Assembly: GCA_017406465.1 (NCBI GenBank) | Contig: JAFQYM010000036.1 | Location: forward strand, 1-64,000 | Origin: Kiritimatiellia bacterium | Lineage (GTDB): Bacteria; Verrucomicrobiota; Kiritimatiellia; RFP12; UBA1067 | Reading direction: 5' to 3' | Length of the DNA: 64,000 nucleotides | Shown here: in pieces, positions 1,830 to 17,032 of the stretch | How the letters are laid out: every line of letters begins with the position of its first letter | Position numbering within the stretch: the first letter of the stretch is position 1 | Translations under genes and position numbers: made by a program | The notes under the pieces: generated by a model | What the model saw: the letters and a program-made list of their open reading frames with translations, nothing else | Database searches by the model: none | Told to the model about the DNA's origin: nothing

Positions 1830-1867
1830 CATAAATCACGACCCCAAAACCGAAGGAGGTAAAAAAA

Positions 1868-3670
1868 ATGGGTTTGAAACTGATGAAGGACAACCACGGC
1901 GAATACCGCCGCATCTGGTACGCAACCATGCACGTGAACGGGACGGCTCGGCTGACCAGCCGCAGACTGAAAACCCCGCTTCGCGGAAAGATACCGCTGG
2001 ACGAGAACGGACGCTTCTCGCTCAACCTCACAGGCGACGCCGCATTCGAGAAGTCCAAGGCGGCGGCAACCGCAGAATTGAAAGCCGTCCTCGATACCGC
2101 CCGCGAGATGAAGGCAGAAGAGCGAAACTCACCCGGCTACGCCGAGTCCGAGGCGTACCGTAAACTCATGGGGAGGTCAATTGAGAATTACCGCATAGCA
2201 GACCTTGCGGAACTGAATGCTAGCAGGAGACCAAAGCATATACTCACATCAGACAAACGCAAATGCCGCTATGGTTTGTCGGTGTACAAAATACTTGAAC
2301 ACTTTGCCAAGTGGTGCGCCCGCTATTCAAACGGTAAGCCGCGAGCCCAGAAGTGCGTGAAACTAACAGACATCAGACGAAGTGTCGTAAGCGCGTACTT
2401 TAGCGAAATATACGAGGTTCAATCCCGTAGCACATTTCTGAAGTATGTTTTTCTCCTTGCCAGCACTTATCGCTACTATATGCCAACTGCGGTCGAAAAC
2501 CCATTCAAAAAGGAATACGAGGAATCTTACAAAAAAATCACTAAGGCGAATGTTGGCGTAAATTCAATAGTCCATGAAGCACCATCAGAAACGCAGATGC
2601 GCCAGATTTGGGAATATGCTCGAAACGACAGGAGCAAACCCTATCTGTATCGCCTTGCCGTAGTCGCCGCCTGTACGGGAATGCGAATAGGAGATTGTTG
2701 CAATCTGACTTGGGACAAGGTGGACTTGCTGAACTACCTCATCACCACAAGTACATCCAAGACGGGCAAGCCCATCGCCGTCCCCATCTTCGACTACGTG
2801 CAAAATTCAAAAGACTACGACGAAATACTGGGGGAGTTACGGCGTGAACTGGAAGCGGCTATCACAGAACGCGAAGGCGGCGAAAAGTACGTGATACCAG
2901 AAGCCGCCGCAATCTACAAGCGCGACCCATCGCGCATAAACAAAATCGGCAAAATGCTCTTCGCCCGTGCGCTCTTTTCTGCACCAGAACCGGAGAAAGC
3001 CGTGATTGTCGGCGAAGAACCAAAGAAGAAGTCTCCCGCAAAAATTCTGCGTACCATCGAATCGGCTAACATAAAACCGGAGAAGAAGAGTCGACTTATA
3101 CGGACATACGAACTCTTCAGCCATGGCAAGTCCTATCGTCAAATCGCCGATGCTATTGGCAACCGCAAAGGGAACGTCTCGGACGACTTGTCTATCATCG
3201 AAGATATGACGGGAGAGCGGTTGCGTCCGGGCAACCCGTACATGGGCGTAAATGCGAAGCCGAGCCTCAAGACGCTTCTCAAGAAGACGCGCCGTGAACG
3301 GACGCAGGGGCAACGCGCCGGCTGTCTCTACGGGTGGCACTCATGCCGCGTCTTTTTTGTCGTGAAGGCAATCAATGCGGGTCTCAAGCCAGAAGTTTTG
3401 ATGGACATCGTGGGACACGCCTCTGTTCAAATGGTACTTCACTACTATAATCCTAAAGAGTTTACCGCCGCAGAGAAGATGCGGGAGCAGTTCCGGCGCA
3501 ACCGCATTGAACGCGCCACTTTGCAAGCATCCCAACAAAAAAGCGCACTACCGATGGCGGACGCCCTTGCCGATGCAAGACGCGCCATACTCGAGTCCAC
3601 AAGCATGACACCCGAAGCCAAAGGAAAGGCGGTAGCGGCGTTAATCATGCTGTCCTCTTCCGGCAAATAA
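1868..3670 (+). CDS. Tyrosine-recombinase integrase with an inserted HTH segment
   Basis: A 600-residue tyrosine recombinase that would catalyse insertion into and excision from tRNA-Ala. The catalytic set is visible: R273 (CTGMRIGD), H491 and R494 (WHSCR), H517 (VGHAS) and Y526 nine residues later. The spacing R273 to H491 is 218 residues, against about 96 in XerD or lambda Int. The extra roughly 120 residues include a helix-turn-helix-like stretch near 414-450 (SYRQIADAIGNRKGNVSDDL). AGGAGG lies 8 nt before the start. The gene is adjacent to the left attachment site and is followed by a hairpin. Confidence 0.92.
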   Translation: MGLKLMKDNHGEYRRIWYATMHVNGTARLTSRRLKTPLRGKIPLDENGRFSLNLTGDAAFEKSKAAATAELKAVLDTAREMKAEERNSPGYAESEAYRKLMGRSIENYRIADLAELNASRRPKHILTSDKRKCRYGLSVYKILEHFAKWCARYSNGKPRAQKCVKLTDIRRSVVSAYFSEIYEVQSRSTFLKYVFLLASTYRYYMPTAVENPFKKEYEESYKKITKANVGVNSIVHEAPSETQMRQIWEYARNDRSKPYLYRLAVVAACTGMRIGDCCNLTWDKVDLLNYLITTSTSKTGKPIAVPIFDYVQNSKDYDEILGELRRELEAAITEREGGEKYVIPEAAAIYKRDPSRINKIGKMLFARALFSAPEPEKAVIVGEEPKKKSPAKILRTIESANIKPEKKSRLIRTYELFSHGKSYRQIADAIGNRKGNVSDDLSIIEDMTGERLRPGNPYMGVNAKPSLKTLLKKTRRERTQGQRAGCLYGWHSCRVFFVVKAINAGLKPEVLMDIVGHASVQMVLHYYNPKEFTAAEKMREQFRRNRIERATLQASQQKSALPMADALADARRAILESTSMTPEAKGKAVAALIMLSSSGK

Positions 3671-3700
3671 TACACTGACAACGGCAATCCATCCACAAGG

Positions 3701-3730
3701 ACGAGGCGGCACAATTACGTGTCGCCTCGT
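3701..3730 (+). terminator. Hairpin after the integrase gene
   Basis: A 12-bp stem ACGAGGCGGCAC/GTGTCGCCTCGT with a 6-nt loop starts 31 nt after the integrase stop. The following T-run is poor (TCTGTCCT), so termination may be partial. Confidence 0.5.
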
Positions 3731-3751
3731 TCTGTCCTGCGCCAAGTTGTC

Positions 3752-3814
3752 TTGACCGTGCGGCATGAAGTGTAAACGCGAAACACCGCGAAACGCACAT
3801 TAAGGAACAAACAA
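3752..3814 (+). promoter_or_regulatory. Promoter/leader box shared with the second HTH_17 gene
   Basis: TTGACCGTGCGGCA at 3752-3765 sits exactly 63 bp before the start codon at 3815. TTGACCGTTCGGCA at 15391-15404 sits exactly 63 bp before the start at 15454. Both genes also share AAGGAAC just before the start and an ATGGAC beginning. Confidence 0.55.
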
Positions 3815-4174
3815 ATGGACGACATGACGCTCATAAGGAAAATAACTCTTGCCAGCCCTGAAAAAAAGGCGGCCGTCGTCGCCGTGCTGTCGGGCGCGGC
3901 TATCGTTGACAGAGGCAAAGCGCAGGATCAAGACGCAGACGCCTACCGCCTTGCGAAAATCACGGACGCGGCGAAACTTCTTGCCGTTGGAAGAAGCACC
4001 GTGTACAAACTCATCAAGACGGGACGCCTCGAAACGCGGGACTTGAACGGTTGTCAGCGGGTCACTATGCGCTCAATCAAGGAATTTATAGACGGCGAGC
4101 GTCCAGCAAACGAGCAAACGAAAGCCATCATCGCCGAATCAAAATCACGTTATGCACAAAGCCAATGCAAGTAG
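3815..4174 (+). CDS. Excisionase-like HTH_17 DNA-binding protein
   Basis: A 119-residue protein. Residues about 46-95 form a MerR/excisionase-type winged helix: a short strand (YRLAKITDAA), then LLAVGRSTVYKLIKTGRLE, then a strand and a C-terminal helix. The position directly after the integrase and the domain type suggest a recombination directionality factor or element regulator. The N-terminal 45 residues have no recognised domain. AAGGAAC serves as ribosome binding site. A strong terminator follows. Confidence 0.75.
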   Translation: MDDMTLIRKITLASPEKKAAVVAVLSGAAIVDRGKAQDQDADAYRLAKITDAAKLLAVGRSTVYKLIKTGRLETRDLNGCQRVTMRSIKEFIDGERPANEQTKAIIAESKSRYAQSQCK

Positions 4175-4192
4175 TCCGATTGAGATTGAGCG

Positions 4193-4235
4193 GCGAAAGG
4201 CACATCTGCTGGATGTGCCTTTCGCTTATTCTATT
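4193..4235 (+). terminator. Rho-independent terminator after the HTH_17 gene
   Basis: A perfect 14-bp stem GCGAAAGGCACATC (4193-4206) pairs with 4212-4225 across a 5-nt loop. It is followed by a T-rich tract TTATTCTATTTT. Confidence 0.9.
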
Positions 4236-4249
4236 TTGCTTGTCGTGAT

Positions 4250-4345
4250 TTGCGTTGTTTGCCGTTTATCCTTGTTTAGTAAATGGTGCATATTTCCACA
4301 CAACGCAACACAGTAGTGTTCATGTAGGCACACGGCAAACACAGC
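4250..4345. other. Nested inverted repeats, candidate replication or transfer origin
   Basis: TTGCGTTGT at 4250-4258 is inverted as ACAACGCAA near 4310-4318, and TTTGCCGT directly after it is inverted as ACGGCAAA near 4332-4339. The stretch between the plus-strand terminator and the end of the rep gene is AT-rich and has no open frame of note. Its place beside an HUH Rep fits a double-strand origin or oriT, but no nick site can be identified by eye. Confidence 0.35.
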
Positions 4346-4373
4346 ACCTCATATCTATTTTGTTTACACATAA

Positions 4374-5570
4374 TCAAGCAAGATAGTTCTTTAGTGCTTT
4401 GGTCATGCGCATCGTGGAATTACGAAGTTTCGGAGGTTTCGACCGTTTACGCTTGTTCAGCGTTTTCTTTACCTGTTGTACGATTGTCTCCACAATTTGA
4501 GATGTAACGCCAACGAACAGCCCAGCAATTGTAAACTTTTCAGGGAAAGGTTTGTCTTTGTGGACTTTTCTCCATATTCCCCTCAAAACCCCATCTCTGA
4601 TTTCTGGCGGAATGAGAATGGCTTCGGGTTTCAATTCCTCCAAGTTTTTCTTTTGCACCTTCCCCCACGGTTTTCCTCTTGGATAGCATTGCGTTGTCTT
4701 TGCTAAATAGTTAATCAATTTTGGCATGTAATCAGGGTCTGCTTCCTCATCAATCATTCTCGTACATACTCCGTACTGCCAAAAAAACCGCATTTTGCAT
4801 TGAGGAATAGGGCGACAACGAATTGCGTTGAACCACAATACTCGGAAGGTATTATGCACAAAGTCTGTTACCTCGTCCGACATTGAAGGCATAATTCCAC
4901 CTGCGTCAATAATAGCCTGCCTTTTGGCTTTCCGCATTTTTGCAACCCATGTGTATGCGTCAGTTGCCCAGTCATAATCCAAAGGCGTGTAAACAATGGC
5001 GTGTATATGCGGCCCTCCGTCTTCCGTCATTTCCCGGCGATAAATTATTGCGCATCGTTTGAAACACCGCGCAAATGAGGTGCTAAAAGTTTTTTGTGCT
5101 TTCTCGAAATCATCCAAGATTGCTTCTTGTCTCCACTCCTTTCCCTTCCAATTCTCTTCGCCCCAATGGTGTACCGTGAGCGTGACGTGATATTTGATTG
5201 AGCCGCGAGGCAAATCAAGACAATCTACAGCCTTCTTGAATTTTCGTTGAGATGCACGTGAAAAGCCCACAATCCTACCTCTTTTGGACTCCTTTATCCC
5301 TGTCCAATAACCTCGAAGACCTGTTTCGTGTCCGATTATCACCCCATGTGGAGTTTTATAGTCGTGCCCATTCTTATACCGATACTCCGCCCTGCCTGAT
5401 TTCTCGTTTTTCAGACGCTTAACAGATTTCCCGAATTCTTTCAGAGTGTGTTCTACACTTTTTGCGTCTAAATCAGTCTTGCGACCAGTTAGTAAATCAC
5501 TCATAAATGGAGTTAGACATCCCAACTCCTCCGCATCCTTCAATAGTTTCTTTTTCTTGTAGTCAATCAT
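4374..5570 (-). CDS. HUH-family rolling-circle Rep / relaxase
   Basis: A 398-residue protein with the three motifs of HUH endonucleases in order. Motif 1 is a strand YHVTLTVHH near residues 127-135. Motif 2 is PHIHAIVY with H188 and H190 as metal ligands. Motif 3 is YxxxxxxYLAK with Y281 and Y288 as candidate nucleophiles. It would nick and religate one strand to start rolling-circle replication or transfer of the excised element. It is the last gene of a nine-gene operon starting at 8980; AAGGAGC inside the end of the preceding gene serves as its ribosome binding site. Base composition is more AT-rich than in its neighbours. Confidence 0.82.
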   Translation of the reverse strand: MIDYKKKKLLKDAEELGCLTPFMSDLLTGRKTDLDAKSVEHTLKEFGKSVKRLKNEKSGRAEYRYKNGHDYKTPHGVIIGHETGLRGYWTGIKESKRGRIVGFSRASQRKFKKAVDCLDLPRGSIKYHVTLTVHHWGEENWKGKEWRQEAILDDFEKAQKTFSTSFARCFKRCAIIYRREMTEDGGPHIHAIVYTPLDYDWATDAYTWVAKMRKAKRQAIIDAGGIMPSMSDEVTDFVHNTFRVLWFNAIRCRPIPQCKMRFFWQYGVCTRMIDEEADPDYMPKLINYLAKTTQCYPRGKPWGKVQKKNLEELKPEAILIPPEIRDGVLRGIWRKVHKDKPFPEKFTIAGLFVGVTSQIVETIVQQVKKTLNKRKRSKPPKLRNSTMRMTKALKNYLA

Positions 5571-5576
5571 AGCGTC

Positions 5577-6014
5577 TTATGCTCCTTTCTTGTTTTCGAT
5601 TTCTGCCAATTGGCGGTTTATGTCGGCGGCGACCTCTCGCGGCAAGTACCACATAGCGGGACGCCCCGCTATCGGTATGAACCGCTTGAGCCAGACAGGA
5701 TTTGCCAGTTTCCAGCGGCACGGGTCTTCAGCGTCGGCTTCATATTCGACCACGCCGACGATTTCCCCCGCGTGTTGTGCAAGCGTCTCGTATGGCGGCA
5801 ACTCCCGCTCCACGATCCTGCCACTCTTCCAGTTGTCGGCTATGTACGCCCTGTCCTCGTCATACGCCGCCCGCGTGTAGTTGCGGCTGAAATGGACGGC
5901 ACAACGCCCGCGCACGGTACGCGGCTCGCTACTGCGCACCTCCACGGTCTTGTAGCCGTGCATCTGCGTCCAACCCCAAATCCACTTCACTGTAAACGCG
6001 CATTTCACGTCCAT
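5577..6014 (-). CDS. ASCH-domain protein
   Basis: A 145-residue protein that matches the ASCH fold pattern: N-terminal WxWxxxxGYKTVEVRS, then RGRCAVHFSR, a central GEIVGVVEY and a C-terminal basic/proline segment. ASCH domains are PUA-like and are thought to bind RNA or modified nucleotides; in mobile elements they are common but poorly understood. It lies between a small unknown gene and rep with nearly no gaps, so it is co-transcribed with them. Confidence 0.75.
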   Translation of the reverse strand: MDVKCAFTVKWIWGWTQMHGYKTVEVRSSEPRTVRGRCAVHFSRNYTRAAYDEDRAYIADNWKSGRIVERELPPYETLAQHAGEIVGVVEYEADAEDPCRWKLANPVWLKRFIPIAGRPAMWYLPREVAADINRQLAEIENKKGA

Positions 6015-6017
6015 AGG

Positions 6018-6251
6018 CTAATCCTCGTCGTCGAATGAAATACCAAGGCTACGCTTCATATCCGCCTCCTGTCGCCCGAAGGCGTCCTCTTCCATCGGTA
6101 TGCCTGTCTCCTCTTCCTTTCGGACGCGAAGTTTGTACACCTCCTCGCCGAAGCGTTCGGGGTCGTCGAAGATTTCCGAATCAAGCATATCGACCAACTC
6201 GCAGATGTTCTTCTTTGAGGTGTCGGTCTTCAGTATCTCGTCTGCTGTCAT
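6018..6251 (-). CDS. Small acidic protein of unknown function
   Basis: A 77-residue protein starting at 6251, where GGAGG precedes the ATG. The longer reading frame upstream is rejected because this site overlaps the stop of the previous gene (ATGA). The protein is rich in Glu, Asp and Lys and predicted helical. No recognisable domain. Operon position between the 88-residue protein and the ASCH gene supports it being real. Confidence 0.65.
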   Translation of the reverse strand: MTADEILKTDTSKKNICELVDMLDSEIFDDPERFGEEVYKLRVRKEEETGIPMEEDAFGRQEADMKRSLGISFDDED

Positions 6252-6514
6252 GGCTGCCTCCGTTTCTTTTCCTTTTCCCAAGGCTTCCCATACTTCCCGT
6301 AGTAATCCGACGCCAGAACCTCCCACTCGTCGTTGAGGTCTTCTTCTGGAACGTAAGTGCCCATTGCGGAATGCCACGCCATGCCCGAATCCTTGGGCAG
6401 TTTGTAGTTGGGCTTCATCTTCACCGTGTGCGCGACGCCGTTCTCGTCTATCGCCGTCGTCGGGTTGGGAAAGACGATTACTGGCGGCTCTATGAAGTCA
6501 TCTTCGGCCCTCAT
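6248..6514 (-). CDS. Small protein of unknown function
   Basis: An 88-residue protein linked to both neighbours by 4-bp ATGA overlaps (6511-6514 and 6248-6251), typical of translational coupling. It has a Pro-rich first half (PPVIVFPNP), a central acidic segment and a basic C-terminus (KEKKRRQP). Its family is not recognised. Confidence 0.7.
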   Translation of the reverse strand: MRAEDDFIEPPVIVFPNPTTAIDENGVAHTVKMKPNYKLPKDSGMAWHSAMGTYVPEEDLNDEWEVLASDYYGKYGKPWEKEKKRRQP

Positions 6515-7167
6515 TGAACGTCTCCTTCCTTATCCGTGATTGGGGCTTCGCTTTCGTCCCATATCAGTTTTTCGTCAAGCAGAGTGTCTGCCATGACATT
6601 ATCAATCATCAACCTGTAGTGCGATTCCTCGACGGCGTTGCTTCTCCGGGCTTCGAGAAGCGCGTTCATCATCGCCTCTCTCGAAACCATACCTCGCTTG
6701 TAGCGGTCGTACAGTCCCAACACCCCGCCCCCGTCGCGTCCCTCGCCAAATGGGGACAGGCGGAATCCGGCGGCTCGCCCAAGCGAAAGAAGTCTGTCGA
6801 TGGCTCTGCGGAACTGCAAGACCGAACGGGTTTCCCAGTCGTCAAGCCCTGCAATGACAAGGCAGATTCTGGGAAGCGGGACTCTCGTCTTGGCGTTGTA
6901 CTCGGCAAGGTTGCGTATCCGCCTTTGGGCAAACGCCTCAAGCCGAAGTTTCATTTCCATCATCAAGAGCGACCGCACAATCAGAATGCCAAGGCACTCG
7001 TCCGTACATGGATTCTCTATGTGCGGCAACCGTCGTCCCTGTTCTTCAGCCCTCTGCAAGACGAGCGGAGGGTACACCACCTCAAGAGGCGGCAGACAGC
7101 CCTCCAGCCGCCGCAGACCGGCTTCACATCCAAAGGCGTATGTCAACGTTTCTGTCTTCGCGTTCAT
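6511..7167 (-). CDS. FtsK-like protein without a Walker A motif
   Basis: A 218-residue protein. Residues about 55-115 follow the FtsK/SpoIIIE/TcpA motor pattern: TDECLG, then MEMKLRLEAFAQRRIRNLA, then EYNAK and a hydrophobic strand LPRICLVIAG where FtsK proteins carry Walker B (VVVDE). No GxxxxGK[ST] is present and the Walker B acids are replaced, so it should not hydrolyse ATP. It probably derives from the coupling/translocase ATPase of a related element and may act as an adaptor with Rep. ATGA overlap with the next gene; GGAGA precedes the start. Confidence 0.6.
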   Translation of the reverse strand: MNAKTETLTYAFGCEAGLRRLEGCLPPLEVVYPPLVLQRAEEQGRRLPHIENPCTDECLGILIVRSLLMMEMKLRLEAFAQRRIRNLAEYNAKTRVPLPRICLVIAGLDDWETRSVLQFRRAIDRLLSLGRAAGFRLSPFGEGRDGGGVLGLYDRYKRGMVSREAMMNALLEARRSNAVEESHYRLMIDNVMADTLLDEKLIWDESEAPITDKEGDVQ

Positions 7168-7228
7168 TTGTCTTACTGTCTCCTATTTCTGTTTGAGTTT
7201 TACCTTTCAATGCGTGTCGTTGCGCGTG

Positions 7229-7372
7229 TTAATTCGCCAACCCATACATTGCGTCTTTCCCCTGCGTTTTTGCCCCGAAAAACTTAATTCTTGACACTTT
7301 CAGGATTTTTTTCGGAGGCCATCGCGCGCCCACGCGCCCGCGACCCTCACTGTTCACTTTCTTTGCCGCCAT
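7229..7372 (-). CDS. Small very basic protein (47 residues)
   Basis: A short frame beginning with AGGAGG five nt before ATG, one of the best ribosome binding sites of the operon. The product starts MAAKKVNSEGRGRVGARW and is rich in Lys/Arg with few acidic residues, suggesting nucleic-acid contact. It lies in the 256-bp gap between the two FtsK-like genes, in the same direction. No family recognised. Confidence 0.5.
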   Translation of the reverse strand: MAAKKVNSEGRGRVGARWPPKKILKVSRIKFFGAKTQGKDAMYGLAN

Positions 7373-7423
7373 TTTTGCCTCCTGTTTCTTCGCGTATTTT
7401 GAAACTTTCCATGTCCCGCTCCA

Positions 7424-8293
7424 TCATGTCCGCAAGCAGACTTCGGACACGAACATCTTCGCCGCCGCCTTTGTCCTTGGGGTGCTAATCGGTGTGGCTA
7501 CCTGCATGGCGTATTCCGCCTCCGAACGGCTGTTGAACCATGTGCAGTGCTTCACAGACGACACCCAAGAGAACCCGACCTTGCTGTACCCCCTCGCAAG
7601 TGCGAACACGCGGGCGGACTCATTGCCTTTCGGCATAACACGGCAAACGACATATCCACAGTCGCCCTTGAGACCTTTTCCCGCATCATCCTGCGCCACG
7701 GCAACTTCTCCGCCGCCGAGCCGCACAACACGAATGGGTGCAAGGGCATCCGCCAAACGCGCCGCCATGCTCTCGCCCTCGTCATCGTCTTGGGACGCGA
7801 AGACGGCGTAGATGCCGACATCGCGGGCAGACAGAAGCGCAGGGCGCATCCCCTCGACAAGAGGCACGTCGGCGGCGGAGCAGACCGCCTCGACGACCAA
7901 GACGATTATGGGCAACTTATCGCCCGTCTTCTCGTCGTACTCGTCAAGACTGCCGACCCCCGCACGGGCAAACAGCCCTTGGCGGCGTTCCATTTCGGGC
8001 GCGAAGAAGCCCATAGCATCCAGCGGCGCGTTGTCCGTCTCTACCTCCGCCTTGACGTTGGGGATGTCCGGCAGCATCTTCAGGATCGTCTGCCGCCCGA
8101 ATGCGCGTATTTCCAGTTCATCCGCAGAGCGTCCAGCCGCCAGCGATTCAAGGAGCGAGCGCAGAGCGCGTAACCGCTCCTTGCGCGAAGCACCCCCAGC
8201 GAGGAGAAGCCCCGCTCCGATTTTCCCGCCGCCGATGTCGATTGCTTCGCCAGCCGCGCCGTTGACAGTTGCCGTCAGTTTCGAGTTGTTCAT
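7424..8293 (-). CDS. FtsK-like protein with degenerate ATPase motifs
   Basis: A 289-residue protein; the start at 8293 is preceded by AAAGGGA. An FtsK-type layout is visible: GAGLLLAGGASRKERL where Walker A (GxTGSGKS) is expected, then ETDNAPLDAM, APEMERRQGLFARAGVGSL, DEYDEKTGDKLPIIVLVVEA at the Walker B place, and ARDVGIYAVFASQ at the sensor strand. The P-loop lysine and Walker B acids are missing. It is thus a second pseudo-ATPase next to the one at 6511-7167. The C-terminus (FARGYSKVGF-like, then a Ser/Cys-containing tail) is specific to this protein. Confidence 0.62.
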   Translation of the reverse strand: MNNSKLTATVNGAAGEAIDIGGGKIGAGLLLAGGASRKERLRALRSLLESLAAGRSADELEIRAFGRQTILKMLPDIPNVKAEVETDNAPLDAMGFFAPEMERRQGLFARAGVGSLDEYDEKTGDKLPIIVLVVEAVCSAADVPLVEGMRPALLSARDVGIYAVFASQDDDEGESMAARLADALAPIRVVRLGGGEVAVAQDDAGKGLKGDCGYVVCRVMPKGNESARVFALARGYSKVGFSWVSSVKHCTWFNSRSEAEYAMQVATPISTPRTKAAAKMFVSEVCLRT

Positions 8294-8319
8294 TGCCTTG
8301 TTCCCTTTCTTGTTTCGTT

Positions 8320-8664
8320 TTAGTCGTTGGTTTTGTAGCCGAGGGCATCTTGCGCATCCCGAAGGTCGCCCCATACCTCCTTGTACGCATCGTCGCGCAC
8401 AGTGCCGTCGTGGGCGGCGTCCTTGAAGTTGGGGTAGTCTATAGCCTCCGCTTCTTCGGCGGCTATCCGCGTCCATTCTGCGCGTGGGAAGTCCATTCGC
8501 CAGCGGTAGTCGCCAGTCGGCGTGGCATGTACGCATGGCTCTACGCCGTGCGCACGGCAAAGCCGCTCAAGGTCGCCTCTGAACCGTGCGCGGACATGTA
8601 TCGTGTCCGGCTTGGAGTTGTGCCGCACCGCGCTGAAGAACCCGTTTCTCACGAATAGCCACAT
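8320..8664 (-). CDS. Conserved small protein of plasmids and integrative elements, function unknown
   Basis: A 114-residue protein starting at 8664 (MWLFVRNGFFSAV), where GGGAG precedes the ATG. Aromatic start, HVRARFRGDLERL, GDYRWR, IDYPNFK and YKEVWGDL recall a small hypothetical protein I associate with plasmids and mobile elements; its role is unknown to me. The longer upstream frame overlaps the previous gene and is rejected. Confidence 0.65.
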   Translation of the reverse strand: MWLFVRNGFFSAVRHNSKPDTIHVRARFRGDLERLCRAHGVEPCVHATPTGDYRWRMDFPRAEWTRIAAEEAEAIDYPNFKDAAHDGTVRDDAYKEVWGDLRDAQDALGYKTND

Positions 8665-8668
8665 GGCG

Positions 8669-8980
8669 TCACGCTCCCTTCCGGCTGTCGCCCTTGCCCG
8701 CGAACCTCTTTGTGAGTTCCCATCCGGGCTTGCGGTCGCGTCCCGCACGGACTGCGGCATCCACACGCGCCCGCCGCGCCGTGTTCACGGCAAGGCGTCT
8801 TGCCGCCCATGCCTCCGCCTTCGGGGTTGCCGTCACCTTGCGGACGGCTTCGTGGACGAGCCGCGCCACGATGACGCTCATCGTCACGTCTTGCTCATCC
8901 GCCAGCGTCATTACTTTCGCCGCGTCGCCGATGTCGCATCTGCTCATCAGCGCGTAGGTCGTCGGTCTTGCCTGTCTCAT
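8669..8980 (-). CDS. Small basic helical protein, possible mobilization accessory
   Basis: A 103-residue protein; start at 8980 with AAAGGAGAAACG before it. It opens with MRQARPTTYALMSRCDIGD and then a helical segment VTMSVIVARLVHEAV, followed by an Arg-rich half. The layout is reminiscent of ribbon-helix-helix MobC-like accessory proteins, but the match is weak. It is the first gene of the Rep operon and follows a long structured leader. Confidence 0.6.
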   Translation of the reverse strand: MRQARPTTYALMSRCDIGDAAKVMTLADEQDVTMSVIVARLVHEAVRKVTATPKAEAWAARRLAVNTARRARVDAAVRAGRDRKPGWELTKRFAGKGDSRKGA

Positions 8981-9197
8981 CGTTTCTCCTTTCGTTTCTC
9001 GTTTTCTTTGTCCGTCCAAAGCACCACGAGTAACGCACCCCTCGGAGAAACTTCAAGCCACCAGTCTTCGTTCAAAACTGGTGGCTCTGGAACCCAGTTT
9101 CCCTTTCGGGCACATCCGCTTTCGCGCTCCACCGTGGCAGTTCCGTCGCTCGGTTGGCATCATCGCTTTCGCAATGAACTCTATGATGTTCTGAACG
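8981..9197 (-). ncRNA. Structured leader RNA of the Rep operon (copy 2 of a two-member family)
   Basis: The expected transcript start (about 9197) gives a 217-nt leader. It begins with CGUUCA (9197-9192), which is complementary to UGAACG (9074-9069) in the loop of a 9-bp hairpin GCCACCAGU/ACUGGUGGC, forming a pseudoknot. Between them lie a GAAA-capped hairpin, the conserved core GCCAACCGAGCG and GCCACGGUGGAG (9158-9127), a CGCGAAAGCG hairpin, a CCCGAAAGGG hairpin and a GGAAC/GUUCC closing helix. The same elements in the same order, with changed but still paired stems, occur at 15306-15173. Confidence 0.7.
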
Positions 9198-9203
9198 TTG
9201 TGT

Positions 9204-9215
9204 ATTATACCAAAT
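9204..9215 (-). promoter_or_regulatory. Extended -10 promoter of the Rep operon
   Basis: TTTGGTATAAT with TATAAT at 9209-9204. The RNA element CGUUCA begins exactly six nt after it, as in the promoter at 15313-15318. Confidence 0.7.
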
Positions 9216-9281
9216 TCGCCGTCCGAAGACAATGGGGGGATGCGCGAAAATCGCGGCAAACACGGGTCGTTGCTACCCGTG

Positions 9282-12200
9282 TCAACCAAGCCACTCCTTC
9301 GACAGCGTGGAGAGTTTCTGCATGAGGGCGCGGGTACGGGAAAGCGCAAGAATGATGGCCTGGTAGTGGTCGATGTCTTCATTCGCGAGCGTGTGTCCTT
9401 TTCTGTCCTTCAGCCACTTCTGCGCGGGCTGGTAGCCGCCGATGAACATCCCCCATGCCTCTTCCGGCACATGGTCGAAATACTGCTCGTCGTTGATGTA
9501 CACCTTGCCGTTGGCAAAGCGCACGTCCTCAACGGCATTGCCCCCGCCCTTGGGGAAGTTGGCGATGCGGTTGCGTTCGCTCGCCGTGGGCTTCGCCTTC
9601 AGCAGATGCGTCTCGCGGAGTTCTCCGCCAATCTTCGCAAGTTTCTTGAACACCGCCGCGTTCGTCGGATAGGGTATGCGCGGGAAATCGACCTTAAGGA
9701 ACTCCCTGTACCGTTCGCGGTATTCGGGCGTGTGCAGAACGGCGTAGATGTAGTCGAAGAGTTCTTCCGGCGACGGCTTGCGCTTCAAGCCGTCAGCAAT
9801 GCGCCCAAACACATCCTTGTCGAAATTCGCCACCTTCTCCACGTTCCCCAGCGTGTCTTGGTAGAGGTAGAGAGGGAAGACATAACCACGCTCTTTCGTA
9901 CGACTTGAAACAAAGCAATCGTCCACAAGGCAATCCGCTACGCCAACAAGATTCCAATCATTCGTTGCAAGATGTTTGCAAACGACAAGTGCAATGTTGT
10001 CATGCTGGTGGATATGCTGCATGACAGGCTTCCTTTGCCGCCACACCGTCTTTGGAGTAAAGCATACCCATCTATCATCAAATGGACGATATGAATAGCG
10101 GACTATGTTACTACTGGAATCTATCGGCAAGTTGCCCAAGACAAAAGAAGCATAGTTTTTCCCAAGACCATACTTCGCCTTGAGTTCTGCCTCTTTGTAA
10201 CCCTTGCCATTGATGTCGCTTATACGTTCCTTGAGTTCATCTTGCGTATGTGCAACTGCGAAGGAATCCCCCATCGTCAGAACTGCGGTACTGTTAATCG
10301 GTAACAATGCGTCAATGCCGAATCCCGATTGGTACTGGTCGCTCCCCGCTTCATTCTGCGGCACAAGCAAATAGTATGGTGCGGTCGGCGTAACAGTAGC
10401 GAACCCCACAGTCGCAAGCGACTTGCTTTCGAGGTATGCGAACTTGTCCTTGCGCGTCCCCCACAGGTCGGCATAGTGGACTTTTGCGAGTTCACCTTTT
10501 TTCTTCTTGCCTGTCTTGACGAATATGTTTATTGCCGTGCCTACGGTGATTGAAAACACGTTCTCGTCCTTGCTGCCATTGGGGGCTTTCTCGTGCTTCA
10601 TGGAGTTGCCGTGAAGGTTCAGCACGTAGATTTCGTCGAAGCAGTCGAGAAGTTGCCACCGCATACCCCTAAACGTCGGGTTGTCGAGAAGCCCGTGGTT
10701 GTTGATGTAGGCGAGTACACCTTCTCCCCTGCGCTCCACGTAGTCCTGTGCAAGGCGAATGAACTTCACGTAGTCGTCGTTCAGCCAGTGCTTGCGCTCC
10801 TTCAGCTTCTCCTTCCCGCCCGGTTCCGTCTTGTAGTCCGCCACGAGGTCGGAAATCCACTTGCCGTTGTTCTGCGAGATGCCGCTGTAGGGCGGGTTGC
10901 CCATGACGACCATCACGGGGCAGTCGCGCTTGACGGCGTTCGCAGCGTTCGCCTCCGCGCCGAGGAGGATGTCGAAGAGCGTACCGCTCAAGTCCTTCGC
11001 CTTTTCAAGCGAATTGGTGAGAAAGATGTTGAAGCGTTTGTCTGTGTTGTGTTCATAGCCGGTGTCGGCGAGAACGCGGTCGAGCTTGATGTGCGCCATC
11101 GTGTAGGGGGCCATCAGAAGTTCAAAGCCGTTGAGACGCGGAATAAGGTTTTCAGCGACGTAGCCGGGCCACTTGCCTTTGTTGGCGAGGAACTTGCCGT
11201 AGATGCGGTTGATACACTCCGCTAGGAACGTCCCCGTTCCTGTCGCAGGGTCGAGAACCTGGACTTTCGGCACGGTCTTTTTGACCTTCTTCGTCAGGGA
11301 CTTTCCCGTGTCGCAGTTTTCCGTCACTTCAATCTGCACCATGTCGCGGCTGGCTATGCCGTCCGCGATGCCGAATTGTTTCACAAGGATGTCGTCGACG
11401 GCGCGGACGATGAAGCGCACCACGGGAAGCGGAGTGTACCATACGCCTCTATCCTTGCGCAGGCCCGCATCGTAGGCGTTGAGGAAGTCCTCGTAGAAGT
11501 GAATCATCGGGTCGCTGCGCTTTTTGGACTTTCCGTAGTCCTTCATGATGCCGCGCACGTCGGCGGCGGCGAAGAGACGAACGATGTCATCGACGGGCCA
11601 CTTGATTTCGTCCTCGATGTCGGAATTGATGTGGTTGAAGAGTTTGCGCAGGAATGGATTGGATTTCGGGATAAGACGCGCCGCCTCTTCGCGCGAGAAG
11701 TCCTCCGGCATGTCGTCGTGGAGACGTGCGGCGAACATTCCGTATGTGAGCGTCTGCGCGTAGATGTCGGAGAACTCGTCCGCGTTGGTGTCGGGCATGA
11801 GTACGCGCTTGAAACCCTCCATCAGTTCCCAGAGCGTCGAACCTTTGGCATTGCCGCTCGAAAGGAACTTCTGCGCGGCGACCTGAAGAAGCCGCGCCTT
11901 CGCCGCCATGAACTGCGCGAGCTGGGTCGGGGAGGTGATGGTCTGCGGCTCGGCATCGCCGAGGCGTTCGACAAGCGCGACGAACTTGCCGAAGTTCTCG
12001 GAAAGCGGGCGGATGCCGTCGCCAACCACCTCGCCGATGCGCACAGAATCGACGAATGCGCCGTTCTCGTAGAAATGGAAGTCGAGGAAGTCGGTGAATG
12101 CTATCGTCTGGTACGCCGCCTTGTAGCGGTCAAACTGCTCCTTGTAGCCGGAATCCTTCTTGCCGGCGAGGTCTCCCGCTCCAATCTTCTTCGTTTCGAC

Positions 12201-12458
12201 GATTGCGATTAGGAGACCGCCGTCAGGATCGGTCGTTATGGTGTAGTCGGGCTTGTTGCGCTCCATCGGCTTCGGCTCGTTCGTGACGCCGCGATTGGGT
12301 AGCAATGCCCGCAGAAGCGGCGAAAGCGCGTCGCGGTAGGACACTTCCGTTGCCTTACCCGTCCTGTACATCCTGTCCACGGCTTCAATGTATGCCACAC
12401 ACGCCGCTTCCTCTTTCGTCACGGAAGCGGACTTCTGAACAGTCTTTTTCGTCTTCAC
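9282..12458 (-). CDS. Type ISP/IIG-like restriction-modification enzyme
   Basis: A 1,058-residue single-chain enzyme. The N-terminal part carries a nuclease-like segment (KPDYTITTDPDGGLLIAIVE, then TKK near residues 70-92). The middle is an N6-adenine methyltransferase with motif I VLDPATGTGTF (D403) and motif IV NPPY (521-524). The C-terminal third matches the type ISP specificity domain. No helicase motifs are seen between nuclease and methyltransferase. It would methylate host DNA and cut unmethylated invading DNA. The start is GTG at 12458; its AGAGG ribosome binding site lies in a helix of the leader. Divergent from the AlbA_2 gene. Confidence 0.85.
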   Translation of the reverse strand: MKTKKTVQKSASVTKEEAACVAYIEAVDRMYRTGKATEVSYRDALSPLLRALLPNRGVTNEPKPMERNKPDYTITTDPDGGLLIAIVETKKIGAGDLAGKKDSGYKEQFDRYKAAYQTIAFTDFLDFHFYENGAFVDSVRIGEVVGDGIRPLSENFGKFVALVERLGDAEPQTITSPTQLAQFMAAKARLLQVAAQKFLSSGNAKGSTLWELMEGFKRVLMPDTNADEFSDIYAQTLTYGMFAARLHDDMPEDFSREEAARLIPKSNPFLRKLFNHINSDIEDEIKWPVDDIVRLFAAADVRGIMKDYGKSKKRSDPMIHFYEDFLNAYDAGLRKDRGVWYTPLPVVRFIVRAVDDILVKQFGIADGIASRDMVQIEVTENCDTGKSLTKKVKKTVPKVQVLDPATGTGTFLAECINRIYGKFLANKGKWPGYVAENLIPRLNGFELLMAPYTMAHIKLDRVLADTGYEHNTDKRFNIFLTNSLEKAKDLSGTLFDILLGAEANAANAVKRDCPVMVVMGNPPYSGISQNNGKWISDLVADYKTEPGGKEKLKERKHWLNDDYVKFIRLAQDYVERRGEGVLAYINNHGLLDNPTFRGMRWQLLDCFDEIYVLNLHGNSMKHEKAPNGSKDENVFSITVGTAINIFVKTGKKKKGELAKVHYADLWGTRKDKFAYLESKSLATVGFATVTPTAPYYLLVPQNEAGSDQYQSGFGIDALLPINSTAVLTMGDSFAVAHTQDELKERISDINGKGYKEAELKAKYGLGKNYASFVLGNLPIDSSSNIVRYSYRPFDDRWVCFTPKTVWRQRKPVMQHIHQHDNIALVVCKHLATNDWNLVGVADCLVDDCFVSSRTKERGYVFPLYLYQDTLGNVEKVANFDKDVFGRIADGLKRKPSPEELFDYIYAVLHTPEYRERYREFLKVDFPRIPYPTNAAVFKKLAKIGGELRETHLLKAKPTASERNRIANFPKGGGNAVEDVRFANGKVYINDEQYFDHVPEEAWGMFIGGYQPAQKWLKDRKGHTLANEDIDHYQAIILALSRTRALMQKLSTLSKEWLG

Positions 12459-12695
12459 AATAAGGGCCTCTCTTCTTGTGCTCTACTGAGGCCGTAGGAT
12501 TGCCTTTGAAGACACTCGAAGAGAGGCCACGCTTGCGCGTGAACCTCGCAACGAGTCGCCTTCGTGAAGTTTCCTACGTTTCAGTAGAACGACTTTGTTG
12601 CAGTTCCCTGCAAATTTGCGCCGCCGCGAACTTGCGTCCGCCTTGGCTATGTCCTTCACCCCGCCTTACACCGCAGTGCAAATTGAGGCGAATTG
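12459..12695 (-). ncRNA. Pseudoknotted leader RNA that can bury the restriction gene's ribosome binding site
   Basis: Expected 237-nt leader. Helix P1 pairs CUACUGA (12587-12581) with UCAGUAG (12489-12483). P2 pairs CGUAGGA (12578-12572) with UCCUACG (12499-12493). P3 pairs GGCCUCUCUUC (12528-12518) with GAAGAGAGGCC (12475-12465), an 11-bp perfect helix that contains the AGAGG ribosome binding site and crosses P1/P2, giving a pseudoknot. Small hairpins (CUUCACGAAG, CUCGUUGCGAG, CACGCGCAAGCGUG) fill the interior. The complementarity is direct observation; a regulatory role is inference. Confidence 0.65.
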
Positions 12696-12701
12696 GCGTA
12701 T

Positions 12702-12747
12702 ATTATACCATTTATCCGCCTCCAGCGGGTGAAAAATATGGTATAAT
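12702..12747. promoter_or_regulatory. Divergent promoters with a palindromic centre
   Basis: Minus-strand ATGGTATAAT (TATAAT 12707-12702) drives the restriction gene leader, and plus-strand ATGGTATAAT (TATAAT 12742-12747) drives the AlbA_2 gene. The two are mirror images around CCGC-CTCCA-GCGG near 12717-12729, which looks like a shared operator. The plus-strand start codon lies 9 nt after TATAAT. Confidence 0.65.
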
Positions 12748-12756
12748 AAGTGCCAA

Positions 12757-14163
12757 ATGACCGAAACCGACAGAATAGAGTACAAGCGGGAACTTTCGCC
12801 CGACATCGACCTTGAAGAGGAAGCGGTCGCGTTTCTCAATAGGCGCGAAGGCGGCATTCTCTACATCGGCATCGACAAGGCGGGCAATCCTGTCGGCGTG
12901 AAGGACATCGACGGCGACATCCTCAAAATCAAGGACAGACTGCGCAACAACATCCTTCCGTCTGCAATGGGGCTGTTCGATGTGACGGCGGATGTTATAG
13001 GCGGCGCGAAAGTCATCAAAGTGTTCTTCGCGGGCGGAAGCGAAAAGCCATACTACCTCAAACGTTATGGCATGACTCCGAAAGGCTGTTTCATCCGTGT
13101 GGGTACGGCTTGCGAGCCGATGCCGGAGGCGATGATTGAAGACCTGTTCGCAAGGCGTGTGCGCAACTCCATCGGGCGCATCCGTTCCGTCCGCCAAGAC
13201 CTCACCTTCGAGCAGTTGCGCATCTACTACCAAGAACACGGCTTCAAACTCAACGACAATTTTGCGCGGACGCTGGAGCTGCTGACGGACGACGGTGCAT
13301 ACAACTACGCCGCGTATCTGCTTGCCGACGAAAACGCGAACTCAATCAAGGTTGCGAAGTATGCGGGGCGCGACCGTGTGGAACTTGTCGCCAATAACGA
13401 ATACGGCATGACATCACTCGTCACCGCCACAAAGCGCGTAATCGAGCGGCTGAAGGTAGAGAACACCGTGCGGACGCGCAAGACCGCCTTGGAGCGCATC
13501 GACACGCCGCTGTGGGACGAACGCGCCGTGCGCGAAGCCGTCATAAACGCCATCGTCCATAACGACTACACTCGCGAAGTGCCGCCCAAGGTCGAACTCT
13601 TCTCCGACCATCTGGAGATAACATCGTTCGGACGCTTGCCGGAAGGTCTGACAAAGGATGACTTCTTCGCGGGTGTCTCAATTCCGCGCAATAAGGAATT
13701 GATGCGCATCTTCCGCGACCTTGAACTCGTCGAATCGCTCGGTTCCGGCATGGGCTACATCATGCAGAAGTACGGGCGCGACAACTTCATTTTCCTCGAT
13801 AACTTCATCCGCATGACCGTCCCCTACATCACCAAGGACAGGGAGGGTCTGGTGGTGGAAGCCGAACAAGCGACACCCCAAGTAACACCCCCAGTAGGCG
13901 TCAACCCTACAAGCAACCCTACAAGTAGCCTACAAGTAACCCTACAAGTAAATCGGCTTATTTCCATAATCAAGGGTGATATGCCACGGTCTGCAATAAT
14001 GGACGCATTGTCTCTTAAGGACAGGGTGACATTCACCGAAGATTACCTTCGCCCAGCCATGCGGCTTGGGCTAATTGAACTGACACAGCCTGATTCTCCG
14101 CGTTCGCCCACGCAGAAGTATCGTCTTACTGCAAAGGGCATGGCGGCTCTGGAAAAAGCATAG
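12757..14163 (+). CDS. Schlafen AlbA_2 / RecG-like regulator
   Basis: A 468-residue protein. Residues 5-115 match the AlbA_2 (Schlafen-like) domain (RIEYKREL, then GGILYIGIDKAGNPVGV). Residues about 255-350 match the HATPase_c_4 part often labelled RecG-like (REAVINAIVHNDYT, SLGSGMGYI). A Thr/Pro/Val-rich linker with repeated TPQVT and NPTS words leads to a C-terminal winged-helix (residues 395-468). Such proteins are common in mobile elements and act as regulators or stress/defence factors; substrate unknown. The start lies 9 nt after TATAAT, so the mRNA should be leaderless. Confidence 0.8.
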   Translation: MTETDRIEYKRELSPDIDLEEEAVAFLNRREGGILYIGIDKAGNPVGVKDIDGDILKIKDRLRNNILPSAMGLFDVTADVIGGAKVIKVFFAGGSEKPYYLKRYGMTPKGCFIRVGTACEPMPEAMIEDLFARRVRNSIGRIRSVRQDLTFEQLRIYYQEHGFKLNDNFARTLELLTDDGAYNYAAYLLADENANSIKVAKYAGRDRVELVANNEYGMTSLVTATKRVIERLKVENTVRTRKTALERIDTPLWDERAVREAVINAIVHNDYTREVPPKVELFSDHLEITSFGRLPEGLTKDDFFAGVSIPRNKELMRIFRDLELVESLGSGMGYIMQKYGRDNFIFLDNFIRMTVPYITKDREGLVVEAEQATPQVTPPVGVNPTSNPTSSLQVTLQVNRLISIIKGDMPRSAIMDALSLKDRVTFTEDYLRPAMRLGLIELTQPDSPRSPTQKYRLTAKGMAALEKA

Positions 14164-14164
14164 C

Positions 14165-15109
14165 CTATTCTTCTATCGGGTTGCCGCTAATATCCTTGTG
14201 CTGGTAGTGCCGACGCGCCATTGCAACGGGCATACCACGGGCATAAGAGTGAATATGCTTGATGATGTAATCCCAATCGGCATCTTGCATCTTGGTGAAG
14301 ATTTCAGGTTGCGTCATCTTACGCCCATCCTGTTCTGCGGGCGGCTCGTCCTTGCCGATAAACTCGACCCAGCGAACATTCTCGTAGTACCGCTTTGCCA
14401 AATCGGGGGCGGCGGCATAGATTGCGTCAGAGACCCATACGCCTTTCCAACAGGATGTATTCTTTGCCAGCGACGCTTCCCATTTGTGATATGCCTCCAT
14501 CGGAAACCATTTTCCGGTCTCACGTTTATAACAAGTTCCACACGCGGCTTTGCTGGTGATGGTGCCGCAACGATGCATAAGCTTAAACCACTCTTCATCC
14601 GTTCTCGCGGCAAGTTTCCTGTCGCGTTCGCTCATTGCTTCCATGCCATCATCCTTGTCCTTGCCTTTCTTCAAGTCCATCCGCGCCTTCCAGATGTTCT
14701 TGAAATGTTCCTTCGCCGATTCGTTGCTTTCGTTTACAATGAGGTATTCGAGCGAATCGAAGTCCATTGCATCCTCGATTGCCTTGCGGATGGCACGATA
14801 TTCAAGCATCGGGAAGTTGGGTCTCTCGTGGTTCTCAGAGAAGTAGAAATTCAAGGAAAGGCGTAGACGCGCCCCCGTAGGAGCTTCCATGAAGAGGTCA
14901 CGCCAGTATTCGTTGCCGCCGTTCCATGTGACGTTTCCGCTCTCGTCGGCGGTGGGCTTGCCGATGAACGCTTCAAGAGCGGCAAGCATTTCGGCTTCCG
15001 TGATATGTTTTCGCCCGTCGTCGTCGCCTCTTGCCGCAGATTTCGCATCAAGCAACTTCTTGTAAATGCTCTGCGCCACGCATTCATCCATATTTTCTTT
15101 CGGCATCAT
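14165..15109 (-). CDS. Element protein of unknown function with a Cys cluster
   Basis: About 314 residues. The start is placed at 15109 (or the next ATG at 15106) after GGACAGGACGACC; the longer frame would run into the structured leader. It is a soluble, charged protein. A segment near residues 180-200 (HRCGTITSKAACGTCYKR) holds three cysteines and one histidine that could bind zinc. It lies convergent with, and one base from, the AlbA_2 gene. I do not recognise the family. Its leader RNA is related to that of the Rep operon, which hints at common control. Confidence 0.65.
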   Translation of the reverse strand: MMPKENMDECVAQSIYKKLLDAKSAARGDDDGRKHITEAEMLAALEAFIGKPTADESGNVTWNGGNEYWRDLFMEAPTGARLRLSLNFYFSENHERPNFPMLEYRAIRKAIEDAMDFDSLEYLIVNESNESAKEHFKNIWKARMDLKKGKDKDDGMEAMSERDRKLAARTDEEWFKLMHRCGTITSKAACGTCYKRETGKWFPMEAYHKWEASLAKNTSCWKGVWVSDAIYAAAPDLAKRYYENVRWVEFIGKDEPPAEQDGRKMTQPEIFTKMQDADWDYIIKHIHSYARGMPVAMARRHYQHKDISGNPIEE

Positions 15110-15306
15110 GGTCGTCCTGTCCGTGCAAGCGCATCGGGAGGACTCCATGTCCCGCAATCGCGAAGCCGCCGTCGTTCAGGACGTGCGGCTTCTCGGAACG
15201 ATGTTTCCCCGCAAGGGGCGCATCTCGGCATCTTGCCGACTCCACCGTGGCGTTCCGCTCGGTTGGCACTCCCGCACAGGGCGGAAGTTTCCTGATGTCT
15301 TGAACG
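15110..15306 (-). ncRNA. Structured leader RNA (copy 1 of a two-member family)
   Basis: The transcript should start near 15306 with CGUUCA (15306-15301), complementary to UGAACG (15178-15173) inside the loop of a GAAGCCG/CGGCUUC hairpin. In order between them: an 8-bp hairpin ACUUCCGC/GCGGGAGU, the core GCCAACCGAGCGGAAC then GCCACGGUGGAG (15267-15240), an UCGGC/GCCGA hairpin, a CCCCUUGCGGGG hairpin within GAUG/CAUC, and GUUCC closing on GGAAC. The order and unpaired core match 9197-9069, while the stems differ in sequence. Confidence 0.7.
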
Positions 15307-15312
15307 GCGGAC

Positions 15313-15318
15313 ATTATA
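15313..15318 (-). promoter_or_regulatory. -10 element for the leader and the unknown gene
   Basis: TATAAT at 15318-15313, six nt before CGUUCA of the leader, the same spacing as at 9204-9209. Confidence 0.6.
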
Positions 15319-15390
15319 CACTTTCCGCGATCCTGATTCCATTGCGAACATAGGTAGTAGCGACCAGATAGAGCCTTTTGTGTCACATAG

Positions 15391-15453
15391 TTGACCGTTC
15401 GGCAATGTGTGTCGCCGTAGATGGTCTGCGAGCGAAAACAAAGGAACTGACAC
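15391..15453 (+). promoter_or_regulatory. Promoter/leader box shared with the first HTH_17 gene
   Basis: TTGACCGTTCGGCA at 15391-15404, 63 bp before the start codon, repeats the box at 3752. AAAGGAACTGACAC precedes the ATG. Confidence 0.55.
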
Positions 15454-15630
15454 ATGGACGCTAAAAGCAAACTGGTAACGATAAGCGAAGCGGCAGAAGA
15501 ACTTGGAGTTTCCCGCCGACAAGTACAGCGGCTAATCAAGGCTGGACGGCTACAAGGGGCTAAACTTGGATTGCGGGCGGAACGCTACCGCTATGTGACC
15601 CGCAACAGCCTCGATGCTATTGTGCTGTAA
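15454..15630 (+). CDS. Short HTH_17 (excisionase-type) DNA-binding protein
   Basis: A 58-residue protein consisting of a single MerR/excisionase-like domain: LVTISEAAEELGVSRRQVQ, RLIKAGRLQGAKLG, then YRYVTRNSLDAI. AAGGAAC lies before the ATG. Shares promoter box and spacing with the HTH_17 gene at 3815, so both may be members of one regulatory circuit (excision and replication control). It is followed 25 nt later by the winged-helix-like gene. Confidence 0.75.
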   Translation: MDAKSKLVTISEAAEELGVSRRQVQRLIKAGRLQGAKLGLRAERYRYVTRNSLDAIVL

Positions 15631-15655
15631 TGGCAACTGGAAAGGAGCAGGCAAA

Positions 15656-16411
15656 ATGAATACCACAAATCAGAAGAGGTTAGAGGCTTGCCGTGCCCAT
15701 TCGCTCGAAGGATTGATTCCTCCATTTCCCTCAAAGGGGGATGAAGGGATAGACTCCAAGGAGAAAGAGGCGGCGGCTCGCAGAAGATGGGTTTGGAACT
15801 TGGCGCGGGCACTCAAACAAGAGTGCGTAGACGACCAAGACGCCTATTTCATCAGCGCAATGGAGAAATTCAAAGTAGACGAAACCGAACGGGCCAAACT
15901 CTCTGACTATCTTGAACTTGCGAGGGACAATGCCAAATTCCCGCTCAACGCGCCAGAGCAGGTCTTCGCTTGCATAACACACTTTGAAAAATATTGGGGC
16001 GAGATACCCGCACCACGCTGGTGCAACAGGGCTGGAACGCCGTATAAGCGTATGTGGCTTGCCGTAGCCATGCTTGGCGCAAATGGAAGCATCTTTCCTT
16101 TCGCGTGTACGCGGATGAGCAATGCATTCGGCATTGTGTCTCCACAGACGGTAAGCGGCTTCCTGCTTATGGCAAAGAACAAAGGATTGATAAAGGTTGT
16201 GAGGAATGGTTCATCATACAAGGAAATCAGCGGCGGAAAGGCTGCGCTATACCAAATCGACAAGCAGAAAGACTATTCGATGATACAGCACATCATGCCC
16301 GACCGCAGTGGCAATACACGCCCGTCCCGCAACGAATACAACAGGCAAATGTTCTGGAAATATCTGGCAGAAGACCCAGACCTCAAATGGCTTGGGATAA
16401 CAAAGGATTAA
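15656..16411 (+). CDS. Element protein, possible winged-helix replication/regulatory factor
   Basis: A 251-residue protein; start at 15656 after AAAGGAGCAGGCAAA. Residues about 120-190 (AMLGANGSIFPFACTRMSNA, FGIVSPQTVSGFLLMAKNKG, LIKVVRNGSSYKE) have the shape of a winged helix seen in replication initiators and primase-associated proteins. The N-terminal half is charged and helical. Co-transcribed with the short HTH_17 gene. The function is not established. Confidence 0.6.
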   Translation: MNTTNQKRLEACRAHSLEGLIPPFPSKGDEGIDSKEKEAAARRRWVWNLARALKQECVDDQDAYFISAMEKFKVDETERAKLSDYLELARDNAKFPLNAPEQVFACITHFEKYWGEIPAPRWCNRAGTPYKRMWLAVAMLGANGSIFPFACTRMSNAFGIVSPQTVSGFLLMAKNKGLIKVVRNGSSYKEISGGKAALYQIDKQKDYSMIQHIMPDRSGNTRPSRNEYNRQMFWKYLAEDPDLKWLGITKD

Positions 16412-16434
16412 CCCGTCACATGCTCAAAATAGCA

Positions 16435-16481
16435 CCCCGTAATCGTGCCTCGAATTTTTGATTCGAGGTGCGATTGCGGGG
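16435..16481. other. 21-bp hairpin near the right end
   Basis: 16435-16455 pairs with 16461-16481 over 21 consecutive base pairs (three G-U if read as RNA) with a TTTTG loop. No T-run follows, so it is a poor terminator. A single-strand origin, an oriT hairpin or a transcription attenuator are possible readings. Confidence 0.5.
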
Positions 16482-16507
16482 TAACGAAAGGCGCGAAAGG
16501 TAATAAA

Positions 16508-16720
16508 ATGTACACACAGGGCTTCTTTATCGCCATAGAGTCTCCTTCTTGGTCTTCTTTGTACATACATATCCCTTATGTCTCTAATGGTACTTATGGT
16601 ACTTATCAACTTTGGCTCGTTTCGCACCATCCAAACCTCCAGTTGTCTTCCATCCGCAACCCTTCGCAGTTGGGCTTTTGCTCCCTACCCGAAAGCAGGG
16701 GCGGGTATGATTTTCTCTGA
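16508..16720 (+). CDS. Possible small protein (70 residues)
   Basis: Frame starting with ATG after GAAAGGTAATAAA, opening with MYTQGFFIAIESPSW. Aromatic and Ser-rich, no known domain. It occupies the stretch between the hairpin at 16435 and the right arm repeats. Coding status is uncertain; the codon choice is not clearly like that of neighbours. Confidence 0.25.
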   Translation: MYTQGFFIAIESPSWSSLYIHIPYVSNGTYGTYQLWLVSHHPNLQLSSIRNPSQLGFCSLPESRGGYDFL

Positions 16721-16838
16721 CAGCCTCCTTTTCCGCGCCGTCACCTCCGGCAAGGCGACAGCCGCAGACCGTTCAGACGCCATGTTTTTTCACAACAGGC
16801 TCTCGACTGCGCTCGCCCACGAGTAGAGGGGTGTTTGT

Positions 16839-16888
16839 GTGCATAGTTATGTGCATAGTTCCGCGCTGTTTTCCGCTGTCTTGCGTTG
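16839..16888. repeat. Right integrase arm-type repeats
   Basis: GTGCATAGT at 16839-16847 and 16851-16859 with a 12-bp period, then CTGTTTTCCGCTGTCTTGCG. This mirrors 1718-1804 in sequence, order and direction. Confidence 0.65.
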
Positions 16889-16905
16889 TGCAAGTTCCCC
16901 AAAAC

Positions 16906-16946
16906 AAGAAATGCGTCCCGCCCTTGACTTCATTGGGCGAAACGCA
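16906..16946 (-). terminator. Terminator of tRNA-Ala supplied by the element
   Basis: On the minus strand, directly after the tRNA, TGCGT and CGCCC pair with GGGCG and ACGCA around a central loop, followed by TTTCTTGTTTT. It replaces the chromosomal terminator stranded at 1581-1606. Confidence 0.65.
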
Positions 16947-16955
16947 CCTTTTCAA

Positions 16956-17032
<77 letters not shown>

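Follow-up and report, generated by a model that had tools for sequence, protein, structure and literature searches.

Two leader RNAs of a Kiritimatiellia integrative element as probable diverged SAM-I/IV riboswitches with a putative 5'-strand-exchange switch

Two genes in a 64,000-nucleotide stretch of DNA from a Kiritimatiellia bacterium (contig JAFQYM010000036.1, positions 1 to 64,000; the window in what follows) are each preceded by a long structured leader, here leader A and leader B. This raises the question to which class of RNA the leaders belong, which signal they perceive and how they act on the genes behind them. An earlier note on this DNA had described them as two copies of one cis-regulatory leader RNA of an unnamed class. 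The first part of this description holds, all motifs having been found in place in both leaders. Within the 64-kb window, exact matches of two 12-base core motifs occur at leaders A and B only.

Both leaders lie within an integrative element of 15.3 kb (1609-17003), delimited by perfect 48-bp direct repeats (1609-1656 and 16956-17003) that correspond to the 3' end of tRNA-Ala. The cargo consists of an integrase, an excisionase-like gene, a G2P-like Rep, two FtsK-like genes and a type ISP/IIG restriction-methyltransferase. An element with the same att site and both leaders is present in two relatives; in relative G081 the leaders are on one contig and in unchanged order. The first gene behind leader A is gene A (103 aa; 8669-8980, minus strand), whose orthologues stand behind orthologous leaders. 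The rest of its putative operon (4374-8664, minus strand) holds FtsK-like genes (7424 to about 8293 and 6511-7167), others, and the G2P-like Rep gene (4374-5570); the operon is deduced from spacing and strand. The genes that follow leader A from 8980 to 4374 run on the minus strand. Leader B precedes gene B (314 aa; 14165-15109, minus strand), homologues of which follow the same leader at four other loci. Neither gene A nor gene B gave a Pfam, PHROG, PADLOC or PDB match worth keeping, their AlphaFold models are weak (mean pLDDT 71 and 55) and gave no fold match, and a search of the phage collection with gene B returned nothing. Gene B of the window is shorter than its counterpart in L165, which has about 70 additional N-terminal residues (NPYW...NAPE module), and the L164 copy is apparently frameshifted. 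Between leaders A and B (9282-14163) the window carries the restriction-methyltransferase gene and a Schlafen AlbA_2/Fic-like_C gene.

Leader A (9056-9197; this and all leader features below are on the minus strand) can be laid out as a SAM-I/IV aptamer followed by an additional hairpin, P6. Its sequence begins with CGTTCA (9192-9197) six bases past the TATAAT (9204-9209) of a promoter-like element (9204-9232, recognised from the sequence), in which TTGTCT (9227-9232) stands 17 nt upstream. The P1 5' strand ACAUC (9185-9189) pairs with GAUGU (9112-9116). The P3 5' strand GCCAACCGAGC (9148-9158), the putative core of the ligand site, pairs with GCCACGGUGGA (9128-9138, GCCACGGTGGA in DNA letters). 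P4 (9117-9126) and P5 (9101-9110, motif CCCGAAAGGG) occupy 9101-9126, and in the pseudoknot PK-2, backed by the covariation count, GGAAC of the P3 loop (9140-9144) pairs with GUUCC (9089-9093). The loop of P6 (hairpin 9057-9085), UUUGAACG (9069-9076), is complementary to the 5' strand CGUUCAGA (9190-9197), which gives a further pseudoknot, PK-3. Leader B (15164-15306, with P6 at 15162-15192) has the same layout. TATAAT (15313-15318) is followed after six bases by CGTTCA (15301-15306), the P3 core motif GCCAACCGAGC lies at 15257-15267, GCCACGGTGGA at 15241-15251 and CCCCTTGCGGGG at 15207-15218. PK-2 is formed by CGGAACG (15251-15257) and CGUUCCG (15194-15200), and PK-3 by CGUUCA (15301-15306) and UGAACG (15173-15178). 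An SD-like AGGA and the start codon of gene B are at 15107-15118.

The leaders look unnamed because an Rfam scan of the 64 kb with the curated thresholds returns only a tRNA and misses both of them. With permissive filters, both match the SAM-I/IV family (RF01725, clan CL00012) end to end, leader A with 36.1 bits (E 2e-4; 9194-9085) and leader B with 38.9 bits (E 4e-5; 15303-15191), each below the curated cut-off of 41.1 bits. A third copy of the leader in the same genome scores 50.2 bits, and most same-genus relatives reach 41-53 bits. A new RNA class under the control of a ligand, a protein or an antisense signal, as the earlier note proposed, would agree with the lack of a gathering-level Rfam match in the window. 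Set against the full-length match, the relatives above threshold and the occurrence of relatives upstream of metK or of a MetK homologue, we regard such a class as very improbable, and the description as unnamed had to be given up. That note had looked to the absence of any Rfam hit for support and, in substance, the hit is there.

The published SAM-I/IV layout comprises P1-P5 and PK-2 without PK-1 (PMC6890682), and the internal loop in P2, which belongs to SAM-I and SAM-IV, is absent from this class (PMC2864571). P1, P2, P3, P4 and P5 are present in this order in both window leaders, as is PK-2, between the P3 loop and sequence 3' of P5. Judged by eye, P2 is continuous with no internal loop, and PK-1 was not recognised. 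Among the relatives, L163 and L168 lack P4, and P2 contains a short mismatch in L145, L147, L162 and L167; visual inspection for a kink-turn in this helix of the L145 group gave no support for one. SAM-I (RF00162) shares the core of the SAM clan and P4 with these leaders, but they have PK-2 and no recognisable PK-1, and a genome-wide search with RF00162 at E 0.1 gave zero matches. SAM-IV (RF00634) has the core, P5 and PK-2 in common but possesses PK-1 and lacks P4 (PMC6890682), whereas P4 occurs in most leaders here and all three of its pairs change on both sides. Membership in SAM-I or SAM-IV thus fits less well than SAM-I/IV. From the full-length match, P1-P5, PK-2, the CCAACC..GGUGG core and the metK association of relatives, leaders A and B are assigned as diverged copies of the known SAM-I/IV class and not of an unnamed one. 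They differ from RF01725 members in their sub-threshold scores, in the added P6 and PK-3, in a 5' end that has two partners, and in their setting, an integrative element in which they precede Rep/FtsK-like and uncharacterised genes. What is new is therefore the extended leader form and its position in a mobile element, while the aptamer class is already known.

Relatives of the extended form were collected with a covariance model (R1) built from 12 leaders. Since both window copies are in the training set, their R1 scores, such as the 117.9 bits of leader A, are not independent; the RF01725 match is independent of that training. Above 90 bits R1 retrieves 27 long leaders, which belong to a single taxonomic family, and the best match seen outside it is L053 with 64 bits (L028 and L053 are from uncultured Lentisphaerae; L025 is RUG12088). 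Within the genus the distribution is scattered, with any R1 match in 8 of 61 genomes. The genes behind the long leader are diverse: gene A on three elements, gene B or a relative of it at five loci, and MoxR-like ATPases in six cases. In L236 the long leader precedes a MetK homologue, and in L226 the MoxR operon behind it has another MetK homologue as its last gene. In related genomes, some 20 SAM-I/IV leaders of a shorter form sit upstream of metK; no recognised riboswitch was found upstream of the metK of this host.

In L226 (59-4577) and L235 (9685-14492) the long leader is followed by a MoxR-like AAA ATPase, a small protein, a VWA (CoxE-like) protein and the MetK homologue, possibly a conflict-type system under SAM control. 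Operons with an ADP-ribosylglycohydrolase-like gene are headed by long leaders in L145 (8523-12039) and L168 (6601-8422). In place of a -10 box, a GGCACG-N5-TGCT-like sequence that resembles a sigma-54 promoter precedes the leaders of L231, L232, L234, L235 and L237. SAM-I/IV riboswitches above threshold occur on the IMG/VR viral contigs L134, L135, L139, L140, L142, L143 and L144, two of them on L139; in several of these viral leaders a small ORF lies directly downstream and the apparent PK-2 3' strand adjoins the start codon. One viral-contig leader, searched against the phage collection, likewise returned nothing.

The conserved core and the metK context and homology make S-adenosylmethionine the likely ligand of leaders A and B. 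The genes behind them are not sulfur or SAM genes, which counts against this assignment; such a context, seen in L226, L236 and the short leaders, is typical of the class and not a strict mark of it. On these elements the SAM-clan scaffold might have acquired another specificity, for instance for SAH or for a derivative of SAM, with the switching anatomy unchanged. This would suit the scores below the Rfam cut-off, the variability of J1/2 among leaders and the scarcity of SAM genes downstream, and retuned SAM-clan-like variants are reported for another class, spermidine (PMC10853860). The same P3 core, CCAACCGAG..CCACGGUGG, and P1 CAUC/GAUG nonetheless recur as identical strings in the leaders that precede metK in related genomes, and MetK homologues are found behind this long leader, so that retuning appears unlikely. 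The suggestion of the earlier note that a single signal governs both operons is probably right.

Covariation was assessed in 25 distinct leaders, in an alignment fitted to the nested helices and not to PK-2 or PK-3. With both pseudoknots included, 95.1% of cells are paired, and pairing falls to 32-50% when partners are slid by 1-3 columns. At 17 of the 40 pairs both partners vary, compared with 7.6 (sd 1.7) in shuffles, which bears out the selection on RNA structure that had been surmised from the two copies. PK-2 is paired in every leader (100% of cells; two pairs change on both sides) and PK-3 in 84% of cells (four pairs). In L243, a diverged leader before a gene A of 93% identity, the 5' strand and the P6 loop have changed together (AGUUUGAGAC with GUCUCAAACG). 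A partner-swap test of PK-3 is non-significant over all 19 representatives (3638/20000) and significant over the eight divergent ones (318/40320); most leaders have one sequence in common.

The pseudoknot at the 5' end that the earlier note described is thus real and covaries, but its complementarity is longer than CGUUCA and the same strand can alternatively pair close to the start codon. In leader A, CGUUCAGAAC is complementary to GUUUUGAACG at 10 of 10 positions, the last two of which are common to P1. Past P6, many leaders read CGUUUGC ... UUCCUGA ... CUUGACG ... AAGGA ... GCAAACG-AUG, a platform able to form a stem that covers the SD and the start; in leader A the anti-SD GUUUCUCC (9044-9051) pairs with the SD-side GGAGAAAC (8982-8989). 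A competing helix can join the 5' end, the P1 5' strand and J1/2 to the segment between anti-SD and SD. In leader A the partner segment is CUCGUGGUGCUUUGGACG (9013-9030), complementary to 9179-9197; the helix comprises 18 pairs (9197-9178 region with 9013-9031) and excludes P1. The candidate partner in leader B, UCCCGAUGCGCUUGCACG (15122-15139), is weak in this copy.

Over 27 leaders the competing helix is stronger than with shuffled platforms (mean z -3.5), and stronger with own partners, at -18.0, than with swapped ones, at -15.8 (sd 0.62; 3/20000). Of 25 leaders modelled, 24 have it overlapping P1, and in most cases, though not in every one, it leaves the ribosome site more open than P1 does. 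For leader A, the competing state is at -84.6 kcal/mol with 19 of 19 ribosome-site bases free, and the P1 state at -82.5 kcal/mol with 5 of 19 free. Leader B counts against the helix: its P1 state is favoured by 5.6 kcal/mol, and GC-rich windows elsewhere in the aptamer pair with the platform equally well (57/104). The mechanism is further weakened by this control with sliding aptamer windows, as at least one other window does so in 17 of 27 leaders, and the helix of leader B is among the weakest. The competing helix or PK-3 recurs in independent form in L053 and L243, the distant L053 having its own perfect competing helix (GCAUCAGGAAU with AUUCCUGAUGC).

Sequence and covariation together establish the aptamer layout, PK-3 and the competing helix as predicted structures of these leaders. 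As 5'-end pairing between anti-SD and SD excludes P1 and opens the ribosome-binding site, we infer a translational OFF switch. When SAM is bound, P1 and PK-3 would hold the 5' end of the leader, and the platform would fold into the anti-SD/SD stem, so that the start site is sequestered and the genes stay untranslated. At low SAM, the leader's 5' end would invade the platform, P1 would be excluded, and the freed SD and start codon would permit translation of gene A, with the Rep/FtsK-like operon, and of gene B. We further infer from this model that SAM represses the leaders and that falling cellular SAM derepresses the element, which would then express its replication and mobilisation genes. 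The SAM-I riboswitch of the Xanthomonas met operon is likewise a SAM-clan aptamer acting on translation, as is proposed here; there it belongs to a methionine operon with tRNA sensing (PMC7270179), whereas the present leaders are on a mobile element and would use 5'-strand exchange.

A mainly transcriptional SAM-I/IV riboswitch, with P6 as a terminator relic or a Rho-dependent site, would explain why P6 directly follows the aptamer and why the equivalent hairpin of L053 ends in a U run. No U run follows P6 in the window leaders, however, and the conserved feature past P6 is complementarity to the SD/start region; we hold transcriptional action to be distinctly unlikely. That the leaders are riboswitches of the SAM-I/IV class with an added P6, acting as translational OFF switches through exchange of the 5' strand and turning the element genes on at low SAM, is in our judgement quite probable.

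Feedback control of methionine and SAM metabolism is what SAM riboswitches are known for. Our literature search, chiefly of openly accessible papers, found no report of one on an integrative element. Here the class occurs on such an element, before replication and transfer genes, and the host's own metK does without it. The leaders also show that mobile members of a known riboswitch class may escape notice under a curated cut-off, and the extended leader offers a clear switch, open to testing, that works by partner exchange of the 5' end and the P1 5' strand. If SAM controls the element genes, the element senses how its host is supplied with methyl donor, close to a restriction-methyltransferase that uses SAM. 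Tentatively, the two riboswitches may free the replication/mobilisation operon and a second gene when SAM is low, for example in a starved cell or during infection by a phage that degrades SAM. The extended switch may govern other accessory operons of this bacterial family as well.
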